A DNA stretch of 64,000 nucleotides from Sporodiniella umbellata. Lineage: Eukaryota > Mucoromycota > Mucoromycetes > Mucorales > Rhizopodaceae. The translations under genes and the position numbers were made by a program. The stretch lies in contig JAIXMR010000022.1 in NCBI GenBank assembly GCA_025677835.1, forward strand, positions 186,001 through 250,000, read 5' to 3'. The notes below the pieces were generated by a model. It was not told the DNA's origin, ran no database searches, and was given only the letters and a program-made list of their open reading frames with translations. Within the stretch, counting starts at the first letter, position 1, and each line of letters starts with the position of its first letter. This document shows positions 1,609 to 34,867 of the stretch, piece after piece.

Positions 1609-3370
1609 ACTTACATTGTCTAGCAGGAGATGTTTTTCCATAGACATGGAGCTTGGATCTTCTTCGGTGGTACTCTGATCGTTTGCGGTTCTGAACCACA
1701 CCGCAATTGGTGTTCAGCATAAAGTTCAAACCTAGCGGCTTAAGGCATCTGTTTTTGTTAAGTAAATGGCTAAGGATCGAAACACTTACGGTAAATATTG
1801 ATCCCAATCTTGATCTTCAAACTTTAGCCCAGTCGGCTCATCAGAGTTTTCTTCCACATCTAAATAAACAATATCTTCCTGGTTATTTGGAAACATGATC
1901 TGTTCTACAGTAGGAAATGGCTATACAGAGATCAGGTTAGAGAAATCCTTGGTAGTAGCTTACTGTACATTGGCAATCGTCCCCTCTCGGTCTAAACAAC
2001 AAATAACCGTGGTATTTCCAAGCGATTCCAACAAGTTGGTAGATCTCGTTAGAGACAGTCGATCCCATTTTGTCAACAGGGATAAGAATCGGTCCCAAAC
2101 AGCATCTAATTCAAGTCATTGGCTTTGAACTTCTTTTAATCCCTCTCCCTCCCCCCCTTATTTTTTTTTTTTTTTTCTTGTTTACTTGGACTTAGCTCAA
2201 GATCTTTCGTGGGTGGCGGGGCTTCTGCATCGAATTCATCTACTTCGTCATCGTCTTCATATTCGGTTTTGGATATCTGAAGGGCCTCAAACAAAATCAG
2301 AAGCTGAGCATTGCCAAAGCTGCGTGCAATGACCCACATACTGGGAAAGCAAAGTGGCAACAATGGGATAATAGCATAACACGACATGATAAATGACTCT
2401 TCAATGAGCTGATCGATAGGATAATGATTTACCATTACGCTCTTCAACCCAAATCGCAAAAAGTTCACAAAAAGTGCTATTACCAACACGATCCATAAAA
2501 TATAACCATAAAAGATATGGATGATATGTTTCGCCTCATGAAACATAACGGTAGGAGGTCGTTTTTGATGCAATGCGCTTCTCATATTCTTTTCTATGGG
2601 CGTTTCCAAAAGCACAAACTGATGTCTTCCTCTGGATCGCATGTATTCTTCCATTAAGCCTTGAGGTGGTGGAACGCCAAAGAAGGAGGGCTTAAGATTC
2701 TGATCTTTAGCAAGATAGTATTCTTTGGCATCTAGCTCGCTGGGTTCTTCCGGTGCTTTATGTATATACTTCATTCTTCCCGGGGCAACATCTCCGTATA
2801 ACATCTCGACAATATCGCCTTCCACCAACAAGTTGACAGGGAAAATGCGCACCACGCCGTCTCGGACTACCTTGGCTACAGACATACAAGGGATAAACGG
2901 AATTTTTGTGTCCTATAGCTCACCATGTTATTGTCTGTATATATCCTCTCAGGAGAGGCTTACCTGAACCATGTTCATCCCATTTCTTTCGAGCGCATCA
3001 ATAATGGTAGCCGCACGATCTGTCATCTCTCTATCTGTCAAAGCTCTTTCCCGACAGAACAAATAGACGTTCCAAATGCCCATGGCAATCAAGCAAAGCG
3101 ATTCCACAATCAACCCAGTCACCCGGGACTGATAAGGCTCGCTCTTAAAGTAGCCGGCAACATAAAATGCCAGTAAGCTGAACCCAACCACAAAACACAT
3201 AAAAATTTCCGGTCGACTCAAAATGAATTTAGCATCTAGCAAAAAAAGAAAGATCAGTTAATGCGCTTCCAAGTCCTTTTCTATGCACCTTCTGCAGTTT
3301 GATCAATTCGAGCCCGCTCCTCTTTCAGTATCTGATGAGCCAAATAAAGCAGCTTACTAGATAATCATTG

Positions 3371-3401
<31 letters not shown>

Positions 3402-4112
3402 AGTATAGAAACATGCGTATATGAGAGTAAGGAGACCACTTTACCTTAACGCTTCTTCACTGGACAATCCAGGATGTCGATTGGACTGGGTGCTTTCTCT
3501 TCGACTCCATGTCTGAGACTGTAGTTCGGTTTGTAACACGCGCTGTGTTCTCTTATGTAACCGTTTTCGAGGTACTGACCGTTTTCGGTATCGGTGGCGT
3601 CTGTTATGTCGCATCATTCGTTCATGATCTCCCCGAGGCATTTCATCCACCAGATCCTCGTCTTCTTCCGTATAGACTGTCACCATCGATTTCTCGTGTT
3701 TCTTTTTATGAGATTGGTTTGAGGAAGACGCAGCCCCTGTTTCACTAGCAGTATCCTTGTTGACATCTGTGGGCTGAATCGCCCGGTGTAAATGAGAACG
3801 CGGAGGTTTAGAATCTGTATCGGAATCACGTCGAGCAGGCGAGTAAGAAAATGCGCAATCGCTCTCGGACTCTTCTTCAGAACGCAGGCGAGGTTTTCCA
3901 GACAGTACGTGATCAATCACTACTTGGGCTGATATACTTGACCCGCTACTGCTGCTACTGCTGCTAACGCTGGCGCTATCGTTTTCTTCGTTCACATCCA
4001 GAAGGAAATAAGTAGTTCCCTGTTGAGAAGTGAGCCCGGTTTGCGAATCGTTAGAAGTGTTGGATATGTGCGAAGAGCTAGACACAACAGGCTGGGTTGA
4101 TTCAAACGTCAT
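1..4112 (-). CDS. TMEM94: TMEM94/ERMA-like P-type ATPase (C-terminus outside window)
   Basis: Multi-exon gene read right to left from ATG 4112 and cut by the left edge; the last exon seen is 1-33, joined to the exon ending at 120. The order follows metazoan TMEM94, an ER P-type ATPase-like protein reported to load Mg2+ into the ER. After a Ser-rich N-terminal tail (3441-4112) come a membrane pair (2949-3242), the actuator-like part with NLLVEGDIVEM (2136-2885), TTVICCLDREGT (about 2000), LKPLGLNFML (about 1730), KGQIFLGMA (about 690), GIRFVYFSA, LGLETDW (about 410) and AQLPRGIDEIRPHLE (about 310). The canonical DKTGT is replaced by LDREGT, as it is altered in animal TMEM94. Introns carry (CA)12, T32 and A28 tracts. 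The family call is firm; exact joins at 1.1-2.1 kb and 3.3-3.4 kb are less certain. Confidence 0.85.
432..463. repeat. T32 run in TMEM94-like intron
   Basis: Read on the gene strand this is an A32 tract ending directly at the AG acceptor before CCTTTGCAG, where a pyrimidine tract would be expected. Confidence 0.85.
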
Positions 4113-10339: not shown

Positions 10340-13300
10340 TTAAACACCATTTAAGGTGGAAGGGGTAGGGGAGGAACCAAACATTTTTCTATCGTTAAAG
10401 ATGGTACCAAAAGGAGAGCCTGAGGTAGTAGAGCTCATGATACTTTTGCCATCGAAAGCAGCAGGAGAATCCATCGGCGTTTTGAGAGTCATACGCTTGT
10501 TAAATTTTTGACCTGTACGTTCTGTCTCCCAATCTTCCCACTTTTTCATAACAAGACGTGAAGAGTCAAATTTACCCTCTGCATCGCCATGGCCCTTGTC
10601 TTTCTTTTCGCCAGCGATAACACGTGTAGCACCCCAAGAGAAATCATCAAAATGCCAGAAAGAGTAGACGGGCAAGATAAAGTTCCAGATAGGAAGAGCA
10701 ATGATATAGACCAGCATCCAGAGAATATAGATAAATTTAAAGGTGGTGATACCAATCAGAATGGCGGGTAGGCCCAGAATGACGATCAAAAGAGCCAATG
10801 ATTGCCACTGGGGATCTGTGGAGATAGCAGTGTCGATGATTAGATAGATGGTCATCACAATAGCCGCAGGTAAGACCAAGGTACCCAAAAGATCTACAAA
10901 GACAGAGAACTGCATCGAAAGACAGGCAATACCACAGAGATCCGAGACCAAGACGAGTTCCATCAAGTTATGTACAGTAGAATTAATCCATCGACGACGT
11001 TGGGACAAGAGTACCTTGAATTCATCGGGTACGATGGTCTTACAACGAGCCTGGGGAACAAACATCATTTGTCGTTTTGGGAAAGTACGTAACATCAGCG
11101 TGGACAAGAATCGATCTTCACCCAAAAGTAGCAGGTTCTTTTCGTGTAAGGTTGTCACTACATTTTGATTGTATTCTAAAATAATGTCTGGATTGGCCAA
11201 AATAGGAACCCAGGCGCCGTTCTTGGGGGACTTGATACGGTACATACTAAAACAACCGGGTAAACAGGTAACAATACCAAAGAGAGATTCAAACGCTTTG
11301 GCGTAATGGTGTGAAATATAGTATTCGAATACTTGGATACTTGAAGTAACTATGATAGAAAACAGATGAGCACGCAAAATCTTTAGAACAAGTGTGTATG
11401 TGGATTTACATGAAGCTCGCTTGTTGGCAATTCTGGTTTCACCACAAAGACCCATAATAGTAATATCATTCGCCATAGCAGCCACCATGTAAGTCAATGC
11501 GTCTGACAATACCTTTGTATCTGCATCCACCTAAATTGGGAGATTAGGAAAAAAAAATAAATAAAGATAGACTATTGTGTAAGTTACCATCAGCACTAAT
11601 TCAAATTTATCGGGTGTAACCCCTTTCATGAGCCAAGTCATCTTCCAAAAGATTTCATAATCCAACTCAGACAATCGATCATTGAATAAAACGCGTTGAA
11701 AGAAACTCATCAAGATGAGCTGTTGTATATAAAGCATGTTAAAAAGGGTATCTTTTTCGGCCTAGTGTCTGTCTTACCTGAGAATCACGTTTACCACGAT
11801 TACCGGCTTTAGGGGCATCTCTTTCTTCATCTGTACCACATTTGACAATAGTGACACAAGGAACACCTTTATAGTGACCCGCATACTGTTTTTTTTTTTT
11901 TTTTTTGGTTAAGATCAATCAGACACAGAAAAAAAAAAAGAAATGCTTACCACTTTAGCCATATTCAATTGTTTTTCACCGTCAGCAATAGCTAGATAAG
12001 TAGAGGGCTTAGGATTTGCCATGGTAGGATCAAGATCCATCATATCAATAACAACGTCAGGTGTAGACTTTGTTTCTCCTTCACCGGTAATCATACCGTC
12101 AGCAATGACAAAAAAGATCTTGGCTCGAGGTGAGTCTAAAAGTCCTGTGTAGATGTATGTATTTTACCTTGTGTTTATTGGAGTAGGTGGTTTCAGCCAA
12201 ACTGTCCATGGTGATTCGAAGGCCTTCTTCGCCTTCTGAATAACAAGTGACCAACATGACTGTGTAGAGCTCAGTGGTGACGATATCGGAGCGAGCCCCG
12301 CCTAGACCAATCGCTGAGCTAGCTTCAGAGAGAGGTGTGGCGCGCGACGAACCTGAATTGAAAGAGACCGTGGACTGTTGCAGTTGCATGGGTGGGTAAT
12401 GGTTATAGGGGCCTGGGTTATGGTTTGCTGGATCATCGTTACCTCCTTTGACTGAACGCCAGGCGAGCCAGTTCGAACGACCTCCAGGCTTGATCATATG
12501 ACGCGAAATAACCCATTGGAATAATAGAGCCATTGAATAACGAATGGCAATCATGGCCGCAATCACACCCAACATGAGGTTCATAATGATCTTTTGGGCA
12601 ATACAACCCCCTGTTTCAGTTTCCATAATACCTGCCTTGTATCGTGATTGAAGACAGCGTCGGATATTTCCACTCTGCTGAACGTTCATAATAGCCAGAG
12701 AGGCGTCTGTGCCCAGGTTGTTGCGGATAGCTAAATCGATTCGGTCACCAAAAGAATGAGTGGGCGAATTAAGATAGGCCGTAAGATTGAGGACTAGGAT
12801 AGAGAAAGACTCGGGTCAATACATATAGATGTATAGAAGAGAAAATATTACCTGAATCACCCAACAAGATCAATCCTTTACCATTCAAGGTCTTGGTGTT
12901 CATATCTTCCCAGTCAAAACCGATATCACCTGTAGCAGAAGCAGTCTTTTTGAATTCAGCGAGCGAAAGACAGGTATTGCTAGGAGGTGTGATCCCGCCA
13001 CCATAAGGACTGTTGAGGTAGCATGTACGTAGGCTATTGGGAAAGGCGTTACAGGCGCCGTCGGTGTCACCATTAAAAATACTTCCGATTTCCGAGTTTT
13101 CATAATCCCTGGTGAAATTAAGTCCTTTTTGGGCAAAGAAGTTTTGGACAGCATCATAAGGATAGATTTTACCAAAGATGCGTGGGTTTTTATGATATCT
13201 TGGGACCCTCACACCATTGGTCATGTCAGAATATGCCTCAGTAGAACCAGTACCTGAAGGACACAATACCTTGGTCAAACCATAGGTAACAAATGCCAAA

Positions 13301-14111
13301 GCACCACATAAGAATAAAATGATATAACACAGTGAGAGCTAATTTTCAAAAAGTAAGTAACAGCGGACATCTTTTTTCTTCTCTTGGTTACCTTTTCTCT
13401 CCAAGCTTGTTGTACCATCGGCTCACGCTTTCTAAGACAGACACGAAGAAACCAGTTTGGAATACAACACGTCATAAGATAAGCACACCAAGCCCACCAA
13501 CTGGTCAATACTTTGACTTTCTCTTCTGGTTCCGGTTTAGGCAACTCAGGTTCCAAGAGGCCAGCTTCCTGTTGATTGATTTTTTGCTGTTGGAGTTGAT
13601 GTTGAAGTCGGTTGGGCATCGGTTGGTTATTAGGTCTTGGACGGTTCATACGTTGTTGCTGCTGCTGCTGTTGTTGTTGTTGTTGTTGCTGTTGCATCAT
13701 CATACGATGTTGTTGCGAAGGAGAGCGGATCAAGCCTTGTTTGGGTCGTTGCCTCTCAGGGCGGGACAGAGACCGGGAACGATCGACACGGCGGTACCCT
13801 TGGGGCGGTAGTTGATTTGACGTGGGAGGCCGGCTGGGTCGCGCGTTGGTCGGTCGGGCCTGAGATGAATAATGGTGCTGAGGTGAAGAGGATGGTTGGT
13901 TTTGTCTATGAGCAGGAGGGCGGGGACGTCCTAAGGGGTCCATACTGTAATGTTGTTGTGGCGGTGCTTGCTGATGATGATGCTGTTGCTGTTGGTGGTA
14001 TTGTTGGGGTGAAGGCTGCCTTTGATAGCTCGATCTTACTGGCCTTTGAGCTAGCCGAGGATCAGGCCCTCCTCGATACATATTACTGCTAGGTCGATGG
14101 TTATTTGACAT
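10340..14111 (-). CDS. CHS3: Class IV (Chs3-type) chitin synthase
   Basis: Membrane glycosyltransferase that polymerises UDP-GlcNAc into chitin. The start is ATG 14111. About the first 220 residues are disordered and rich in Pro, Gln and Arg, with a poly-Gln run of about 14-15 (near 13660-13690). Membrane segments ([14 protein letters not shown]) and a conserved extracytoplasmic loop follow. The catalytic part contains [15 protein letters not shown] (about 12240), DADTKV (11520), [23 protein letters not shown] (about 11120) and the processive signature [13 protein letters not shown] (about 11000), then C-terminal membrane helices and a Ser/Thr-rich tail. No myosin motor domain is present, which excludes classes V-VII. 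Around seven exons; the introns contain poly(T) runs. Confidence 0.93.
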
Positions 14112-16870
14112 TTCTTTATTTTGCTTTTCTTTATTTCCTCCCCTTTTCTGTTTATGTACAATAAAAAATAATAATAACAAAAATATTAGAAAAGAAAATC
14201 AAAACAAAAAAATGAGTGAGAAAAGGGAAAAAAAAAAAAAAAAAAAAGAAAAAAAGAAAGAGAGGCTCAGAAGCTGTGTATAAATAACTGAGAAAAAAAA
14301 ATTGTTTCTATTTTCAGCCCTTTCCTTTTGAAATTGAGTGATACCTCAAAGTTTTGCATCAGCCTCTTGGAGAGAAAGACTGTATATGTGTGACAACTGC
14401 TTGGTTTCTGTAAAAAAAAAAAAAACGGATTTAAAAATATACTTGAATGCCCGAAGATGTTACTGTTCGAGAACCATATTATAAAAATACAAGGGGGGGG
14501 GGCAGTTCAAAAATGACAACAGAATTATCATTTTCTATAGGGTTCCAAAATAACTTGGGTTGCACCAAACCGGTAGCTGTAAGAGATCCAACGTACACCG
14601 GACATGGAAATAACCAATCCAGTAAGCCATAAGTTTTATAAAAGCGTCTATTCTAAAAAAGCAGTAAAGAAAAAAAAAAGCCTCTGAAACGCCCAAACAG
14701 AAGCATATACAACACATAGTTCTATCTATTTATACAACGCCTTCGCAATGTTACTCGTCGTCATCTTTATAATATAAAGCATAACATATCGCATTTTCAG
14801 CTGCATTGTTGATCTTTTTTTCTGTGTACTTTTAGAAAATAAAAAGCAACAGAGCCATTCTATCAAATGTTTTCTCATTCTATCTAAGTATAAATATATT
14901 TTATCATTTTATATGTGTGTTCCTGTATTTTTGTATCGGCGAAAATCAAAATACTTGGAATCCTTTACCCCCCACCCCCTTCAGCTTACTATGGTTCAAT
15001 AAACAAACAGAGGATCGTCTTCTTATTGTTTTTGCTTCTTTATTATTGTGGAGGGATATCTACTCAGAAAAGCGTGTGAAGGTGATAGATACATCTGACC
15101 ACTACCACTCTCCCTTCTGCCGCTTTTTAATTACTGGCAACAATAAAATACAATAACCAAATACCAATTTATGCTTTATTTGACATTTTAATATCTTTGC
15201 TGATAAAAATAGGTTACTCAAAACAAGAAAAAGGTTCTACGCTGAGTTTGTTATGAACTATTTTTATATAATCAACGCCAGTAATGAATACAGTCCCAAT
15301 TGGTTTATTTTTTCCTCTGGTTGCACACATCACTTGTTCAGTCAGCTTTCTAGCACTGAGTCAAAAACATCAGAAATAACTAACTATCTTTCAAAATTAT
15401 GTCAATACATGCCATATTTATGTGTATTCAAAAAGTTTTGTCATTGAATATTTCTATTAGTCTACTCCATACTTGATTTTAAAAAAGCAAACTTATGCTT
15501 CCCCATAGCCTTTAGCTTGTCTTTCTTGCTTCTTTCAAGACAAGCATTACCCCTCCTCATTAATCAGCCTTTTACTTCTTTATTGATTCATCAGCTTATC
15601 TTTATATTGTTATTACAATCTTATCTATAAGATCTAATAGTCGCTACAAAAACTTTTTATCTTCAACTACATATATTACCAATTGCTTCACAACCCGGTA
15701 TTCTAACACACACAAAATGGCGATGATTTATTTCGTATCGGTTTTTTTGTAACAGTTGCTGGAGATACAACTACTAAGCGTACGTTTGAGAAGAGCTTTT
15801 AGCGAGCCCAAACGATCCAGAGCCTAAAAGAAAAACAAGCGTTCGCTCCTCCGTAAAGGTAATTCGCGTTTATAAAGAAAATCAAAAATATGTGTACAAA
15901 CCCGGATTTTTTTTCAAACAAATAAAAACCTGTTCTACAAGTAGGCTAAATTGCTTGAACATTTAAAAAAGGTGAAATAATTTATGCTAATGAACGTTGT
16001 TTAGAATACATTTGCACGCAAAGAAGTTTTACGCAAATGTAAACCCTTTGCTGAATAAAACAATACACAGAATTTAACCTTTGTTATTCAAAAAACACAT
16101 TCTAAGCCTATAGCCGTTGAATTTGCACTTGTTAAAGACAAGCCATAAACTATATACTGAGCATCTCTAAAACAATCAATCAAGGACTCGAAAGTGAAAA
16201 AAAAAATATCTACCATGATTTTTTTTCCTAATGAAATAAAACCTGTCCTGATGCTGGTTGTGCTAAAAAAAAAAAAAGTCGAAATACTTTCTTGTTTTAT
16301 TGAAATGAAGGTGGAAAAAGAATACATTGTCCAATTATCAAGACTTGCCAAAATTGGCATTATTTGAAATTGAGGACACTAAATCTATCTTACTTGTACA
16401 GACCATAGTTAAAGTAAACCCTAAATCAACACTATATATTTGACATTTTGTTCGTAAACGTATACATGTTTGGCTCTGTAATAACATACTATGGATGTAC
16501 AAAACACATAAATGGCACAAGAATTGTTCAAAAAAGTTCAAGGTCATCCATTGATTTTTAAGCACAACAATCATTTCACTATTAATTAAACTGTTATCAT
16601 TTACCCATCACACTTTACTACGCTGACTATCCAATTTTTCTATTTTTCTAAAAAAGGTGTAAACTTTATCCTCATGGAATATGGCTCACCTTTTGCCAGA
16701 TTCCCTTAGACTAACTAATCGTCACTCAAGATGCTAAAGCAATCAAATAAAACCTGATGCCAAAATCAAAGACAATGTTTGAATAAGACAAACAAAATGA
16801 TTTTCAAATACGTCACCTTGTAGACTTTGGATTATATTTTCAGATTATGCCTATTAAAGTACAGTGCCTC
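14112..16870. other. AT-rich island, no intact gene
   Basis: About 2.8 kb upstream of the chitin synthase. It holds a G10 run (14493-14502) and many short frames without recognisable content. From about 15.9 to 16.6 kb the plus strand reads like coding sequence broken by several stops (for example KPIAVEFALVKDKP, then LVQTIVKVNPKSTLYI), suggesting a decayed gene or element that I cannot name. Confidence 0.4.
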
Positions 16871-16876
16871 CAACCC

Positions 16877-17065
16877 CAAATTTCGCTTTTCAAAATATCA
16901 AATTCGCTTTGATAATAGTCAAAGATCACTTTTTACTCAGTCAAATTCGCTTTTGCATAGCTCAAAGTTCGCTTTTGTTTTCAGTCAAACTCGCTTTAGT
17001 CAAAGTGAAGTTCACAATTTTATTTAACGACCTAAATAGCCTAGAGGTGCTCAAAGCGATTTTTT
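16877..17065 (+). repeat. Phased array of CAAATTCGCTTT-like motifs
   Basis: Degenerate copies of tCAAAttcGCTTTt begin at 16877, 16899, 16920, 16942, 16963 and 16986, spaced 21-23 bp, with looser copies at 17001 and 17052. Inverse copies occupy the other arm (about 18815-18930), which lacks one ~20-bp unit. The regular spacing and position at the ends of the element resemble subterminal protein-binding repeats of DNA transposons, or an upstream activator array; function is inferred only. Confidence 0.65.
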
Positions 17066-17482
17066 TCTCAAAGTAATTCTAGCAATAACAAAAAAAAAGG
17101 TAATGGATTGATGACGGTAAGTGAAAAGTGACGGATTGGTGATGGATTGTTGACAAATTGTTTCTCTTTTTCCTTTGCCACTTTCCAATACAACATTGCA
17201 AACTAATTGTTCAACTAAAAATAAACTAGATTACTTAAAGAGGCTTATTCAAATATGACAGAAGATTCAGAAAGATTTAAATTACCATTGAAGTGGAAAC
17301 CGGACACTGATCTCATGAGCAAAATGCTGTTGAGGGATCCAGAAATAATGCGTATAGTTATTCAATCGCTTCTTGGTAATACATCGATGTTTGTATTGCG
17401 CGTTTGAAAATACTAATATATAAGTCGTATATAGGTGAGGATGTTTCTCCTGATAGCTACTCAGTAACCCCGACCTAGTGGG
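16929..17482 (+). repeat. Left inverted-repeat arm
   Basis: About 554 bp whose reverse complement matches 18394-18927 with only scattered substitutions and one ~20-bp repeat-unit difference. It includes the leader, first exon and first intron of the nuclease-like gene and stops abruptly after CCCCGACCTAGTGGG. Confidence 0.9.
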
Positions 17483-17592
17483 CTGATACTATAGGTGTAT
17501 GTACCTTGTATATCTCACAAAATACGAGTAATGAAAAATTCATTCCAGAACTTGTTGTTGTTCAAGAAGAGTTTAACCGATCACTTATTTGA
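17255..17592 (+). pseudogene. Truncated nuclease-like pseudogene copy, plus strand
   Basis: Starts with ATG at 17255 (MTEDSERFKLPLKW). It has a plausible 55-60-nt intron after IVIQSLLG, then EDVSPDSYSVTPT followed by an in-frame TAG (17476-17478). After it the frame resumes as WADTIGVCTLYISQ and IPELVVVQEEFNRSLI up to TGA 17590-17592, about where the minus copy has its IEVQ motif. No C-terminal half follows, so this copy is truncated as well as interrupted. Confidence 0.6.
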
Positions 17593-17676
17593 TGTCTTGC
17601 TTCTTTTTTGAATGTGATAATAGGAACTTTTGAGGGTAGCAGACGATTTGCACGGCTTGAACAGGCCATTTGTTCC

Positions 17677-18621
17677 CTATTTTTTTCTCTTTCCAGGCTT
17701 GCTGAGAGTTTCAATAAATGCAGCATCTTCAATGGTATACTGTTTTGGTTCATTGCTTTCTCCTTCACTTTTGTTATTGTCTTCGAGATCATTTTCAATC
17801 TGTTTAATTGAGAAAAGCCCTTCTTCAGCGTGGATTGTTGTTTTTATTTTACTGCTAGTTCCTTGATTCTTGCTATCTTCAATAATCTCCTCCAGATGTC
17901 TTTTCACTTGATTCAAAAAGTACTTGGTATCTGATTTGAGTATAATGTCATTATCTTTCTTTGCTAAGATATTATCCACAATACGAAATACCAATGCTAA
18001 TGTTAGGTCTCTCCAATGTAGTTGAGGAACTTGGGTCATGGTGTGGAGTGTAATAAAGTAACCGAGTGCTGCCATAGGATTTAATGTTGCTTTCTGGAAA
18101 TGATTGGAAACAGCATCCGCAGTCAACAAAAACATTTCTTTGCCCAAACTTTACAAACTGTTTCGAGCAGAAGTCCATCAGCACTGGCGGTGAATTCACC
18201 TTGGAATTCAGTGTTAGAAAAAGATTTGGTGACTATGACTATAACGATGGGTAATGCTTTATAACGCTTATAGACATTAGAGCTATATTTTATAAGTCTA
18301 AGCGTGAACTCTTGATTAACTTGACACTGGACTTCAATTAATATTGGGGGGACTTTGTGGACGCATACACCATATCTGGCCGACTGTCAACAACCCACTA
18401 GGTCGGGGTTACTGAGTAGCTATCAGGAGAAACATCCTCACCTATATACGACTTATATATTAGTATTTTCAAACGCGCAATACAAACATCGATGTATTAC
18501 CAAGAAGCGATTGAATAACTATACGCATTATTTCTGGATCCCTCAACAGCATTTTGCTCATGAGATCAGTGTCCGGTTTCCACTTCAATGGTAATTTAAA
18601 TCTTTCTGAATCTTCTGTCAT
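17677..18621 (-). pseudogene. Broken PD-(D/E)XK-nuclease-like gene, minus strand
   Basis: Begins at ATG 18621 with the same first exon as the plus copy and carries the same TAG in exon 2. Further on the frame breaks at least twice (about 18390-18360 and near 18137). The remaining blocks read PPILIEVQCQVNQEF, VTKSFSNTEFQGEF, FLLTADAVSNHFQK and LNPMAALGYFITLHT, then an acidic/Ser tail ending in a basic KRKK. The I-E-V-Q block followed by an aromatic/basic helix and an L-N-P-hydrophobic block resembles the Rpn/transposase-associated PD-(D/E)XK nucleases; this is inference from motif order, not a database hit. Confidence 0.5.
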
Positions 18622-18927
18622 ATTTGAATAAGCCTCTTTAAGTAATCTAGTTTATTTTTAGTTGAACAATTAGTTTGCAATGTTGTATTGGAAAGTGGCA
18701 AAGGAAAAAGAGAAACAATTTGTCAACAATCCATCACCAATCCGTCACTTTTCACTTACCGTCATCAATCCATTACCTTTTTTTTTGTTATTGCTAGAAT
18801 TACTTTGAGAAAACAATCGCTTTGAGCACCTCTAGGCTATTTAGGTCGTTAAATAAAAGTGTGAACTTCACTTTGACTAAAGCGAGTTTGACTGAAAACA
18901 AAAGCGAATTTGACTGAGTAAAAAGCG
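18394..18927 (-). repeat. Right inverted-repeat arm
   Basis: About 534 bp, reverse complement of 16929-17482. It is shorter mainly by one unit of the end-repeat array. Confidence 0.9.
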
Positions 18928-19073
18928 ATTTATCATACAATCCCAATAATCTAATATATCCAAATAAAGCTAATTGCAGTAACACAAAGAACTGTCTTTA
19001 AACAATCGTCCATTATATCAAAAAATGCTTCCCCTTTTTTTTTTCTACAAACTTCTTCCAACTACATAGTCCA

Positions 19074-19478
19074 ATGGATTTAAACAGAGGTAAATTGAAT
19101 TTTCCTGAATCAGTTTATACAAAATTTTTGTTTCACTTTTTGTTTTTAGCCCTAGTATCTTTTTTCGACAAAGAAGGTCGGAAAACGTTGTATAGCTTTG
19201 TTATTAAACATGCCCCTTTGGTTGGAAAGTATATCTGTCAGTTCTCTAAAATAGCCCATACAAGAAAGAGTTTAGTTTATAAATTTCAATCGAAATATAA
19301 AGCAAAAAAAAACCCCAAAAGCAAGAGATCTCCACTCATCAACTTTTATTTTGACATGTTATGGTCGTCTACACAAGTCAACAATACACTTGCAAATGAA
19401 GGTGATAAAGTATTTATTGAGTTTATCAAGTCAAGTAGTGTAGAAGTTACGAAAAAGTTACAGACAAATGATAGATAA
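19074..19478 (+). CDS. Hypothetical 134-residue ORF beside the palindromic element
   Basis: Open frame starting MDLNRGKLNFPESVYT, with a hydrophobic stretch (FLFHFLFLALVSFF, residues about 18-31) and a Lys-rich middle. I do not recognise it. It sits within 150 bp of the right arm, and a further frame fragment (SLVYPNKFTGIVLSDEE, near 19680-19720) follows after stops. It may be the remains of a larger repeat-borne gene. Low confidence that it is expressed. Confidence 0.25.
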   Translation: MDLNRGKLNFPESVYTKFLFHFLFLALVSFFDKEGRKTLYSFVIKHAPLVGKYICQFSKIAHTRKSLVYKFQSKYKAKKNPKSKRSPLINFYFDMLWSSTQVNNTLANEGDKVFIEFIKSSSVEVTKKLQTNDR

Positions 19479-21142
19479 ATAAAGCACTTCAGTAGACATG
19501 TTGACAACAACCTGTTTTGTTGTCGTTAAAACATAGATACCGATGGCAGAAGAAGAGGAAAAAAACCAGAATACAACGTACAGGGGCATCAGGAGTAAAC
19601 AGGCCTGAAAGGAAGACGAGAAAAAATCCAACTCTGAAGATAACTATTCAAACAAAAGAGGCGATAATGTATCTGACGAAAGCTTAGTATACCCAAATAA
19701 ATTTACAGGTATTGTATTATCAGATGAAGAGGTCTCTATCTATTTGAAGCAATTTAAGCAGTTCCAGTTAAAGGTCTAACCCTTGGGTGTTTTGATTTAT
19801 AGTAAAGGTCCCTTTTTTTAAAAAATTCATGAATCCAAGAAAAGCCTGAATCTGATACAATTTCCAATTAAACGCTAGTTTGAATTTGCTTTATTAAAAG
19901 AATAAAAACCAGTAAAAGAAAAAACATAATGAATGTTATGGTTAGTATAGTATGAAGTCTTTTTGAGGGTATACCTACACTATTCTCACCTAATCACTAA
20001 TAGGCTTGTATAATGTAGACTTCTTAAAGTCTGTTGAGCCATCGCGGCTCCTTTCGTTATTCCAGCTTTTTGAATAATACGATCGAAAAAAATAAAATAA
20101 ACATCGTCAAACTGTGTCAACAGAAACAAGATATCGGGTAATACCCGCTTTCACTTTCTGAGCAAAAATACTTGTATTCCCATAAAGGTTTTATTGACAT
20201 CTGATTTAACTAAAGCTTTGGTAATCTGTTCATTTTCAAAAGGCCTACTCAAACTGGCAGTCAATGATCTTTTCTATGGAAGTATTTCTATTGTATAATA
20301 CATCCTATTTGCTCCAACAAAGCTTTTTCTATCGACCGTGGTTACTAAAAATCATACATCTGTAGTTTTCTTTGTCTAACTCAAACTAGCCCAAGCTAAT
20401 ATGCAATTGATATTTTATCTAGTTTTTTTTTTTTTTTTTTTTTTTTACAACTCAGTAAACAGAGCAATGCTGAGGAACGGGTAACTTGCCTTTTAAAAAC
20501 AGTCTTTGCTCTAATAATGAAGCTTTTACATAAACAGCTTCCGCTTGACACTAGTTGGTGCAACAAATCTTTTTACAAATTCTGTTTTCATTTCAAAGCT
20601 CCTCTTGTAACTTGGGTTGTCAAAACCGATAGAGAGATGAAATCGCTCATACAAAAGACTTGTTTGTATTTTTTTTTTTTTTTTTTTTTTTGGATATTTG
20701 GAATTCCAATTAACTCCAAACCTCCCCGCTCCCTCTCCCCCTTTAATTGCTTGGTTTTTCAAATATTCAAAAATGGATTCCTTTTAAGTATAACAGACCT
20801 TCTACCTTGTTTGCTTTTTTCAATATAGTTCTTTTGTTGTTTTCTTCTCCTCTTCCCCCTTTTTTTTTAGAGAAAAAAAAAACATCTCCTGTATTTACCA
20901 AAAGATAAAGGCCTCTTTTCTTTTTGTTGTTGTTGTTTTTTTTTTAAGAATAAAAAGGGTTAAATGAAAGTTTTGCTTGAGAAATGCATAGTGAAAGGGG
21001 ATGAGAAAATGTTTGTTTTTCTTGTACTCCAAACAATCGATTGAACATAAAAGGTGAATTTTGTTTACATATAAACGCTGGACCCTTTTTTTTTTTTGGT
21101 ACATTGTTTCTCTTTTCTGAAAAATTCGGTTTCTTATAAAAC
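19479..21142. other. AT-rich spacer with decayed coding fragments
   Basis: Holds T runs (about 20424-20446 and 20671-20691). On the minus strand, coding-like fragments interrupted by stops occur at about 20430-19970 (for example ITKALVKSDVNKTF and IIQKAGITKGAAMAQQ). A GACAACAA/TTGTTGTC hairpin lies near 19502. No intact gene recognised. Confidence 0.35.
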
Positions 21143-21583
21143 ATGACAAAGGATATGAAACAAGGTGTAGCTAAAGGAGAAGACGCGAAACAAGAAGTAG
21201 CTTTAGAGCTATCCAAATGGATGCAAACAGTGACAACCGGGATTAAAAAAGCATCTACGATTCATGGGGAAGACCTGGTCAAAAAGTTGCATAAAAAAAT
21301 AGAAGAAGAAGAAAAAAAAAGTAAAGAACACGCCCATAAACCAGAGGCAAAGGAAAAGAAAGAGAGTAAGCAACCCGAAAATAAACCAGAGTCAAAAGAA
21401 AAGAAAGACAAACCAGAATCGCCCATGAGACGTCCCTTATCAAGCTATAACGTGTTTACCAAAGAAATGTTCAAGAGAATGAGTGAAGAATCATCAGATC
21501 TTAGTTTTGCTGAAAAAAGCAAGTTGATATCCAAAATGTGGAATGAAATGCCTGAAAATAAAAAAAAGGTAACCAATACTACC

Positions 21584-21627
<44 letters not shown>

Positions 21628-21982
21628 GTGAGGGAGAGTATATCTTTTTAAGTGTATTTTTTAGGTCTACAACGATCAGGGAGAAATAAATAAGAACACT
21701 TATAGAACACGAATAAAGTTGATTACTGGACACTGTCAAACGCCAGAGCAAGACACTGCAGTTGAACCTTTGGTAAAGACCAAAAGTTACAGGTGTAATA
21801 AAAACAATGAGAAGTTAGCTTTTGAACGTGCCTTGCAGAAGAATGCAGAGTCTATCCAGGCTCTGCAGAAATCTATCCAACGGTCTGCCTTTCTACAACA
21901 ATGTACAGCCTTGGGCTGTTTTGCTTGTATTTGCGTATCAGCCTATTTATTTTTAAGCTTACGTTCATGTGCATGTATATAA
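21143..21982 (+). CDS. HMG-box protein with hydrophobic C-terminal segment
   Basis: Two exons, 21143-21568 and 21665-21982, give 247 residues. The N-terminus is helical; residues about 50-95 are a Lys/Glu-rich linker. One HMG box follows (MRRPLSSYNVFTKEMF, then LSFAEKSKLISKMWNEM and the split ...KKK/VYNDQGE), which normally bends DNA. The intron cuts the box and holds a (GT)20 run. After a helix (LQKNAESIQALQKSIQ) the protein ends in about 20 hydrophobic residues (CTALGCFACICVSAYLFL) and a short tail, which looks like a tail anchor. Alternative 3' splicing that removes this segment is possible. The HMG assignment is solid; membrane insertion is inference. Confidence 0.75.
21586..21626. repeat. 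(GT)20 microsatellite in the HMG-box intron
   Basis: Pure GT dinucleotide run starting about 18 nt after the GTAACC donor, occupying nearly half of the 96-nt intron. Confidence 0.9.
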
Positions 21983-22025
21983 TAGTAAAAATAACAATAA
22001 TAATAAAAAAAAAAAAAATTTTTTT
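21983..22025. terminator. 43-bp convergent 3' junction with A13/T9 palindrome
   Basis: Only 43 bp separate the HMG-box stop and the MTHFR stop. The junction is nearly pure A/T with an A run followed by a T run and an AATAATAATAA stretch, so the two transcripts must overlap or share poly(A) signals. Confidence 0.5.
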
Positions 22026-22800
22026 TTATAATAGCTTGAAGAGTATATCGGCCTTTTGGAAGTCGTGATGAACAATGTTCACAAGCCAATGGGTATCACC
22101 AATCTCCTGAAGTAGTTTTTGACTTTCGCTCCCAACAGGGTAGTGTTGCTCCCATTCTTTCCACAGACCAAACGCTTCATCCTATTAAATGTATATAGAA
22201 TGCGTCAAAGGGTTGCTATTTTTTATTTTGCCCTAACCTTCCAACTTTCAAAACTTGCTTTTTCAATAATAGTAGGCTGAATGATCTCTTTCTCTGGAAA
22301 AACACCCCATGTAACTGTACATTGAGCATCCGGATGACTTACATTTGAAAGGAAATCGCCCTTTTTTATGAAATAGATATACACACATGTATGAGGGATT
22401 GAATCAATGTATAGAAAATGTTGGTTTACCTTTCGGTTGGTACTAAACCAAGTGATTGATTTGATTTTTGATAGCCGTTCTGTCAAGGCTTTGAATATTT
22501 GATCTGACACAAAGAATTCAACAAAGGCCTTTTGATACACATATCCCTCTTTAGGTCCCCAGCCATACACCGGATCCTCACTCGGTCGACCATTCACAGC
22601 TGGTTGAGAACTCACAGTCCAATAACCCAGGTCAATCCAACGTAACAACTCTTGACGGATCTCTTCTGTCTCGGTCGATAGACTTTCTTCACACCAAGGT
22701 AATGAATCCAGTTCACCACATACATATCTTTTAAACAAGTGTGTCACATCCTCTGTCTTTTTCGGTGTACCCCATTTATCAATGGCTTGGGATGTCTAAG

Positions 22801-22831
<31 letters not shown>

Positions 22832-24106
22832 GAAAAAAATAAAATGATGTGTTTATTGTAATGGATCTTCTTCTATATCTTGACCTGTTCTTACGGGTAA
22901 TAGTTGACCAGCACCATAGGTATTTTCACCAAAAGCTATATACATAGGTACATTTACTTGATAAGAAGCCTCTTGTTTTTTATTATTATTTACCAGGTGA
23001 TCTATAATCGCCATAACGACCATTTGGAAACTCGTCCCATACGGCAATTTTGCCAGGATCTCGAGCCGGTGTGAAAGGCGAGAGGGTAGAAGGAGGTTGA
23101 GGGTTCTAAATGATAAAAGGTGAGAGGAGTGAATGACAAGCAGCTATATATATATATATATATATTACAGTATAGGGATTCAATTGGTCTAATATCAAAC
23201 GAGTGGAACGTTCAAGGTTCAAGGTTGAGATGTGAAAGTGGCAAAGGTTGGCTTTTTGGTGTAACTTTTGAATCATTTCGACGGCTAGACTAACGCCGTA
23301 ATCTTTTACTTTTTGATCATCGCCTTTAATTGTCTCGAGTGTGGCCAAGACCGAGGGCGGGACTTGTACATGACAGAGGTGTAACATCCGACGGAATGTT
23401 TGATAGGTAGGGATAGGCATAATACCAGGCACGATGGGCACCTGGATCCCTTTGGCACGGCAGGTGTCCATCCATAGCAAGAAACGATCCGGATCATAAA
23501 AGAATTGAGTGACAATAAAATCCGCACCGGCATCGACTTTGGCTTTCAGGAAATCGAGTTCTTGACCAGGATCTTTTTGGCTGTCTACATGGCCTTCAGG
23601 ATAACCAGCCACACCGATACAGAACTGATCTCCATAATGCTTACGGATAAAACGCACCAGGTCGATGGCGTGCTGGAATGCCTGTTGCTGTGTACCGTAT
23701 TCTCTACCTCGCGGTGGATCCCCTCGTAGAGCCAGAATATTATGAATTCCTGCGGCTGAGGCTTCCTCTAACGCCTGTCGTAATCGATCCTCTTCTAGAT
23801 TGGTGCAGGTCAGATGCATCAAGGTGCATAGCCCAAGTGATTGCGCTTCCGAACATAGTTTCAACGTACGTTCATGGGTAGATCCTCCAGCACCCCAAGT
23901 ACAGGAAATAAATTCTGGTCTTAATTGGCTCATACGTCCCAACCGATCCATCAGATTCGTATATCCCTGAACTCACAGTAAGCGCAACACGTACATTTAT
24001 CTATTGGGTTATTCATTACTAGCTCGGTTTTGGGTGGAAAAAATTCAAATGAATAATTAATCTTTTTTTGATGATCGCCTTCTTTGATTTTATCAATAAT
24101 CTTCAT
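22026..24106 (-). CDS. MET13: Methylenetetrahydrofolate reductase (MTHFR)
   Basis: FAD enzyme reducing 5,10-methylene-THF to 5-methyl-THF for methionine synthesis in the cytosol. Exon 1 (from 24106) encodes the typical start KINYSFEFFPPKTE and joins to GYTNLMDRLGRMSQL. The TIM-barrel domain shows ISCTWGAGGSTHERT, NILALRGDPPRG, ADFIVTQFFYD and VPGIMPI. The C-terminal regulatory domain, which binds S-adenosylmethionine in eukaryotes, follows in several small exons (YGWGPKEGYVYQKAFVEFF, TVTWGVFPEKEIIQPT, then a last exon beginning DEAFGLW). Introns contain (TA)n runs at about 22801-22827 and 23143-23164. Start and stop are well supported. Yeast has two isozymes (Met12/Met13) and I do not separate them. 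Confidence 0.93.
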
Positions 24107-33827: not shown

Positions 33828-34867
33828 TAATAATAAAAAGACTCTTTTTGATCCCCTGTAAAACTGTAGTACTTTTTTTTTTTTTTCCTGTACAGTATCT
33901 TGAAACAATAGTTTATTAGTCCAAGTGTACTATTTAATGAACTTTGAAAGTTGGGTATATGCAAGTAAATATACGCCGTTGATATATTTTGACAATCGGC
34001 GTTATTAACATGAATACTCATAAGAAAACGCGATGAAACAAATATTTGTAACAAGCCGTACTGGTATTTTTGCACCACTTTACTTTTTTTCTTTTTGGTA
34101 ATTAAAGCATAAAAAAAAAATATCCATATCCTTTTAGAGGTTGTTCTATTTCTCTGTTGACTTATTGACCTCATTCCCATTATTACATTGTTGACTTTAA
34201 TAAAATTGTAGGTCATAAACATACGGATCTTTTTTTTGGTTTCAACCAATCATTTTGCCATAAAAACTTATGAAAGCCAACCTCGCTCTTTTCTGCTTCC
34301 CAAAACTGTGCTATTGAGTTCAAGAGAGTAAGTGAAAAGATACCGATGTATGTAGCGAATAGTAATGGCTTTTGAGTTTAGAAGTTTTTTAGTTTTTCTT
34401 TTCTTGTTTTTTACGCCAACTACTATTAAGCCTGTGATAGAAATAATAGCGAAAGGGATATTGGATTCACTCAAGCCAGCGTCAATCATTTTTTGCTCTT
34501 TGCTCAAGATATGCTTCCGATCTACCTTTTTACAGCTTTAAAAAATGCATCCAAGACATATACTCTACTGCTTGAACCATTTCTAGGCAGTTTAGATATG
34601 GACATCAAATTACTTTACAAAAAAGTGTTTATATTTTTTTTGCGTAACAAGCAGCTTGGTCTGTAAAGTGGTTTGGGGTTTTAATTTTAATTGGTCAGTG
34701 AAGTCGGTTTTGATTGGCTATTTCATTGCGTCTTGGAAGCACTGTATTTTTCAAATAAAAAAAGCGGTGTCTGAATTATTGACCTTACAATCTAGTTGCA
34801 CACCTTTCATTTTTACTTTCTTTTTTGAAGTTGTATTATCTCTTAAAGAAAAAATAAAAATAAAAAA
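33828..34867. other. Intergenic; possible small membrane-protein exon on minus strand
   Basis: 1.04 kb. A minus-strand frame around 34507-34270 has MIDAGLSESNIPFAIISI continuing to a Lys-rich stretch. That could be an exon of a small membrane protein, but no convincing neighbouring exons or start context were found, so no gene is called. Confidence 0.3.

Follow-up and report, generated by a model that had tools for sequence, protein, structure and literature searches.

Tc1/mariner elements are among the simplest transposons, with one gene and two short ends. Foldback elements, which include FB-NOF and Galileo, and Tn7, in which TnsA-TnsB unites a DDE transposase with a partner nuclease of PD-(D/E)XK type, are further points of reference for the locus considered here, a palindrome in the genome of Sporodiniella umbellata (Mucorales, Rhizopodaceae). 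It lies within a 64,000-nt stretch of contig JAIXMR010000022.1 (assembly GCA_025677835.1, positions 186,001 to 250,000, forward strand), hereafter called the window. On the evidence of its architecture and homology, this palindrome is quite likely a decayed, non-autonomous member of a palindromic transposon family of the Tc1/mariner superfamily in Mucorales, from which a mechanism of movement may be proposed.

Tc1-MP1 of the Rhizopodaceae and Mucoraceae comprises, in the available part of its description, a transposase open reading frame (ORF) with terminal inverted repeats whose coordinates span 1688 bp, and no palindrome is mentioned there (PMC9977792). The S. umbellata elements share with Tc1-MP1 an IS630/DDE transposase, TA at the ends and inverted termini, but differ in having transposase genes in both arms of a palindrome and a two-gene centre. 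Mariners account for 3.62% of the Rhizopus oryzae assembly, and the available portion of the genome paper does not describe a palindromic layout (PMC2699053). Very long inverted arms with internal repeats are a feature of the foldback element Tetris, as described in the accessible text (PMC4079207), and the general foldback architecture of long inverted arms, internal direct repeats and a unique centre is present in S. umbellata, the comparison being one of architecture. Unlike those of foldback elements, the S. umbellata arms include transposase genes together with the first exons of a pair of different convergent genes, and their superfamily is Tc1/mariner. The arms of human Y palindromes are also kept alike, there by gene conversion, but those palindromes are chromosomal and not mobile, according to the available part of the source (PMC3723533). 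Among the titles and beginnings of abstracts listed by full-text searches, which cover few subscription journals or preprints, there was no description of a palindromic Tc1/mariner element or of a nuclease-bearing one.

Two facing genes in the window palindrome

The inverted arms occupy 16925-17485 (+) and 18391-18929 (-) and agree at 535 of 539 aligned bases, with four mismatches and one 22-bp gap, which represents the loss of one subterminal repeat unit. A repeat search returned a 521-nt core, and the BLASTN self-match spans 542 columns at 97.97%. Near-identical inverted arms had been described in an earlier note on this DNA and are borne out, although the centre, given there as 911 bp, measures 905 bp. 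With a low-complexity filter on, the palindrome is the sole inverted repeat at E ≤ 1e-8 across the window, and its inverted self-match scores 925 bits vs. a best of 41.9 bits in 20 base-shuffled copies of positions 12001-24000.

Each arm contains a leader, exon 1, intron 1 and the beginning of exon 2, the right arm being the mirror image of the left, so that the leader, first exon and first intron are present on both sides as the earlier note had claimed. Exon 1 of the left, B-type gene lies at 17255-17375 (+), its end set from the GT..AG intron at 17376-17434, and is mirrored at about 18501-18621 (-); tblastn of the Mucorales proteins P0001, P0014, P0022 and P0033 matches both arms. On the right, exon 2 continues into the remnant of a domain designated A (17599-18441, -), with the sequence PPILIEVQ at 18350-18327 and an LNPMAALGYF block, which tblastn with Rhizopus microsporus P0024 matches at 72% identity over 75 amino acids (18353-18129) and 47.6% over 185 (18144-17602; E 8.8e-70). 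On the left, exon 2 continues into the truncated remnant of domain B (17435-17589, +), a paralogue without the catalytic glutamate, of which ~35 codons are left beyond the arm (17485-17589). This remnant is matched in tblastn by the B proteins of two other loci in the genome, L015 (50.7% over 75 amino acids, E 7.9e-18, in an alignment that takes in the arm) and L036 (36.6% over 71 amino acids, E 1.4e-7). Because the right exon 2 continues into A and the left into B, the window contains a pair of convergent genes that share their beginning. The centre had been described as containing the rest of the minus-strand copy; A is indeed there, but the plus-strand copy also runs on, into B.

A nonsense TAG common to both arms (17476-17478, +; mirror 18398-18400) stands where element L013, described below, has GAG. 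Beyond this nonsense codon, A is broken by at least two frame changes and one more stop, with its pieces in different frames to 17599. The window copy is a late stage, in which the genes are dead and the arms still alike.

To the left of the arm, at 16860-16880 (+), lies a terminus of Tc1/mariner type, TA followed by CAGTGCCTCCAACCCCAAA (TA followed by CAGTGCCTCCAAC at 16860), which was absent from the earlier description. The exact left tip, TACAGTGCCTCCAAC, has one occurrence in the genome, and its looser form TACAGTGCYTCCAACNNNCAA, with up to two mismatches, has 27 sites vs. 2 for a reversed control and is present at both ends of a transposase palindrome on contig C120. A right terminus was not found, there being no inward-facing TACAGT within 18701-19300, and the window copy is therefore probably immobile. 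Degenerate subterminal repeats resembling TCAAATTCGCTTT occupy 16883-17005 (+) and are mirrored at 18879-18929 (matches at 16898, 16941, 16985, 18879(-) and 18901(-)); window-wide, the eight matches to this repeat are not above chance (mean 5.1), and their clustering alone is notable. No transposase match was found inside the window palindrome.

Palindromic relatives with transposase genes in their arms

The proposal of a fungal mobile-element family is upheld by Mucorales relatives of the same build elsewhere in the genome. Single-copy occurrence, which the earlier note would have counted against it, applies to the window lineage only. Three large elements carry both A and B: C14:44836-50298 (L013), C125:117541-124439 (L014) and C125:145434-152110 (L063). 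They are near-identical copies at different sites, and they alone have the complete 224-bp L013 tip region, which each contains in both orientations; at other sites, nine matches to this region are weaker or partial. Each 2.1-2.8-kb arm comprises a CAGT-type tip, a Tc1/mariner (IS630-type) transposase gene and the first nuclease exons, and the centre contains two different convergent continuations, A and B. The arms of L013 differ at 2 of 2086 bases and those of L014 at 65 of 2797 aligned bases, with part of the L014 arm consisting of an expanded six-base repeat. A is open in L013 (321 codons), where B contains a stop; in L014, B is open over 168 codons and A has a frame of 305 codons; and A is truncated in L063. 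The six-base arm repeat, short in L013, has expanded to ~750 bp or longer in each arm of the two elements on C125 (L014 2265-3006 and 4963-5716, and likewise in L063).

Smaller copies have no transposase within the palindrome: L018 (679-bp core, 99.7%), L016 (169 bp, 95.9%) and L015 (139 bp, 80.6%). At L017, A and B gave no match at E 1e-3, and short frames resembling both were noticed by eye. Among 15 further fragment loci taken with 1.5-kb flanks, ten are without inverted arms, two (L022 and L026) are part of L063, L031 has arms and two others have short weak ones; L019 (C124), chosen by a near tip match, has no inverted arms. CAGT termini bordered by TA at both ends are found in L014, L015, L018 and the C120 palindrome, and also in L013 and L016, where the right end departs from the sequence by one base. 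The window element has such a terminus at its left end only, and the CAGT tip of L063 is recognized by identity alone.

The transposase frame of L013 matches DDE_3 at E 4.1e-19, and that of L061 scores 165.3 bits against transpos_IS630 (cut-off 100). On C120, a 3.5-kb palindrome carries two open 401-codon IS630-type transposase frames in arms of 1682 bp at 100% identity, around a 151-bp spacer. Of 125 transposase matches in the genome, those on contigs with at least two matches were used to count pairs. Opposite-strand pairs within 10 kb and with scores within 1.5 bits were convergent in nine cases and divergent in two. Adjacent pairs of any score comprised ten convergent, eight divergent and five tandem, so that only the equal-score pairs speak for palindromes. 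The nine convergent pairs consist of the three A/B elements, five more (C120, C122, C185, C2 and C112), all of which have arms of 1157-3508 bp at 96.8-100% within the fetched stretch, and a second C185 pair, which was left out. Transposase matches in both arms were found in ten palindromes, including L031 and L068 (345-bp arms, partial transposase). A or B was matched in four of the ten (L013, L014, L063 and L031) and neither in the other six (L061, L062, L064, L065, L066 and L068).

Several of these palindromes hold other frames. At L031 (C172:77354 region), both arms contain pieces of a transposase, and the palindrome includes another A-like domain, this one bearing an IVEFQ motif. The C2 palindrome has an unrelated second transposase in its centre, and in L065 an unrelated 281-codon Tc1-type transposase frame (1924-2766, -) lies inside the centre of a transposase palindrome, a nested or composite element. 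A G(Y/F)GEVK motif is common to frames in or beside the transposase palindromes L062 (3304-3714) and L064 (1-459), which share 30% identity over 67 amino acids; the L064 frame lies outside the transposase, in a copy whose arms reach the edge of the fetched stretch. The centres of L066 and L067 contain a common family with the motif YGRR(I/L)DLI..E(F/W)KK (34% identical over 127 amino acids); in L067, selected by its tips, the arms measure 407 bp and no transposase was matched. Pfam returned nothing for either set of frames, and by eye only their motifs look like PD-(D/E)XK signatures.

Domains A and B and the evolution of the arms

The same exon 1 is joined to A in annotated or predicted proteins of R. 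arrhizus (P0001), Cokeromyces (P0016) and, in part, R. delemar (P0005), and to B in one of Mucor saturninus (P0014). Compared without the shared exons, and by profile only, A and B are homologous at an hhalign probability of 97.1 (E 7.8e-11, 29% identity). B is 69% identical in Spinellus, 71% in Cokeromyces and 47% in Mucor. Three A/B protein pairs have longest source contigs that match in size (Cokeromyces P0016/P0009, a JGI source with P0002/P0012 and a 1405-bp source with P0049/P0006), which is consistent with, though no proof of, A and B being neighbors in one element.

In an alignment of 34 rows, A has the motif D65, E84-x-Q86, with D in 19 of 20, E in 25 of 27 and Q in 24 of 27 rows that have a letter there. 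At the glutamate position, B has N in all six database proteins that cover the motif (of nine), and T, A, V and A in L015, L036, the window and L018, respectively. An AlphaFold2 model of P0001 from the 34 rows has a mean pLDDT of 70.6, with ten-residue means of 76-86 over residues 71-180. Its top Foldseek matches were EndoMS/NucS (probability 0.98-0.99, E 0.023-0.044, TM 0.22 by query), followed at lower probability by MspJI and the small subunit of the heterodimeric R.BspD6I. VIA-align over approximately residues 8-182 scored 7.4 for chain G of a McrB/McrC assembly, which we take to be McrC, and 7.1 each for EndoMS and NucS, values just below the clear level; over residues 209-287, unrelated helical proteins score 7.1-7.3. 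Domain A is thus likely to adopt a PD-(D/E)XK fold, a prediction with moderate structural support, and the match sustains the earlier suspicion of a PD-(D/E)XK-like gene. The presence of the catalytic residues makes A look active, and B would have the same fold by homology to A.

Pfam returned nothing for A and, for B, only Etd1 at chance level (E 0.063); a sequence search of the PDB gave nothing significant (best E 1.7 and 3.9), and defense-system models had no match among three proteins. The further proposal that the nuclease is Rpn-like goes beyond these data, which hint at it only. A resembles the Rpn/TIGR01784 and PF04754 nucleases in a weak match over its D..ExQ region, but P0001 scores 14.8 bits against TIGR01784 (cut-off 52.1), and PF04754 matches 3 of 34 members (best E 0.031), with unrelated families at similar or better E. 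A also differs from these nucleases in being eukaryotic and spliced and in having a glutamate-less paralogue. Separately, a 668-codon open frame at L032 (64-2067, -; C136:162935-163405) contains a B-like domain that lacks the catalytic glutamate and, after it, a long lysine-rich stretch of charged residues; this frame may be a host gene that arose from the element.

In the seven elements measured, the arms of one element are 95-100% identical. Over the 235 bp adjoining the centre the figure is 98-100%, the exception being L063 (71%), in which the left arm has an insertion. In a forced alignment, the arms of the window, L013-type and L018 elements are ~57% identical to one another. The switch from shared to unshared sequence falls within the same two to three codons (EWA, then D or N) in five elements of three lineages. 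A and B proteins are only 41-45% identical, even counting the shared first codons, so that without exchange the arms could not have been apart for as long as the two halves of the centre. Both L018 arms carry the same TGA at a codon that is open in L013, as is the codon of the window TAG, and nonsense codons common to both arms mean that exchange went on after the frame was hit. As judged from these sequence comparisons, the arms are under concerted evolution. Known mechanisms that the available parts of the sources describe include gene conversion acting on the arms of a palindrome (PMC3723533) and template switching from one inverted repeat to another (PMC8604942). The earlier idea that the palindrome is a by-product of movement gives way to a recurrent family architecture with two different genes and arms kept alike.

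Proposed mechanism and competing explanations

In a palindromic transposon the outer ends are alike, which would let a single transposase pair them and, by acting on both, move the whole palindrome. The arms may be kept alike through gene conversion or template switching, and their exchange, evident in the sequence, would give A and B the same promoter as well as the same N-terminal part if both are expressed. A and B might then form a mixed, asymmetric nuclease, or B might restrain A, as an aid to cutting or repair during transposition. Weighing against this account, the transposase is interrupted in L013, L014 and L063. The 480-codon L013 frame (2051-3490 and mirror) is broken at codons 175 and 351 by stops that both arms share, with no difference between the arms in 1440 bases; these stops may represent an intron, readthrough or decay, and the frames of L014 and L063 are split further.

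A bolder proposal, which we consider unlikely but worth setting out, would make the palindrome itself the working principle. Exchange would hold both copies of the transposase, ends, promoter and N-terminal exons identical, while two facing C-terminal domains evolve in the centre, an active nuclease and a dead partner. These would jointly constitute an obligate, asymmetric nuclease that cuts one strand and acts alongside the Tc1 transposase. TnsA-TnsB of Tn7 would be a parallel by functional analogy only. Should the GEVK and RRLDLI..EFKK motifs of other palindromes prove to be of this kind, a transposase-nuclease partnership would have arisen more than once.

A transposase in both palindrome arms, with the arms as the common first half of two nuclease genes, would amount to a genome plan new to Tc1/mariner elements. 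It would also show concerted evolution occurring naturally within a transposon and might be a eukaryotic counterpart of the partnerships between transposases and nucleases, and it accounts for long inverted repeats that are easily written off as assembly errors.

Mucorales have active RNA interference, and a mobile element whose palindrome mainly makes hairpin RNA is another reading, in which read-through would feed silencing and limit the transposase, with A and B secondary. Convergent genes and kilobase transposase-bearing arms could yield such RNA; this reading leaves the B-type protein predictions in several genera unexplained, however, and is distinctly unlikely. Convergent host paralogues with homogenized 5' halves and no transposon would agree with the lack of a transposase in the window palindrome and L018 and with the possible host relative seen in the 668-codon frame, but the TA/CAGT tips and the three near-identical copies at different sites, with transposase inside their arms, make this improbable. 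A one-time chance inverted duplication of the 5' end of one gene at this locus, by hairpin formation or template switching, would explain the near-identical arms and single-copy lineage of the window, yet the arms continue into two different paralogues, and four other elements, from two other lineages, repeat the layout with a breakpoint at almost the same place, leaving it very improbable. The C120 arms, which agree at every base over 1682 bp and flank a spacer of 151 bp, are what an assembly artefact (a foldback read or false join) might produce, but the outer flanks differ, the arms stop at a transposon tip on either side, the window arms differ by four bases and a 22-bp unit, and A and B are distinct genes that each have the same exon 1 in other genera, so that an artefact is the least probable explanation of all.

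Elsewhere in the window, a second Tc1 relic at 34219-34746 (-) has the tip TACAGTGCTTCCAAGACGCAA and C120-type transposase fragments (38.6% identity over 57 amino acids, E 6.7e-7, and 42.9% over 35 amino acids, E 0.007).

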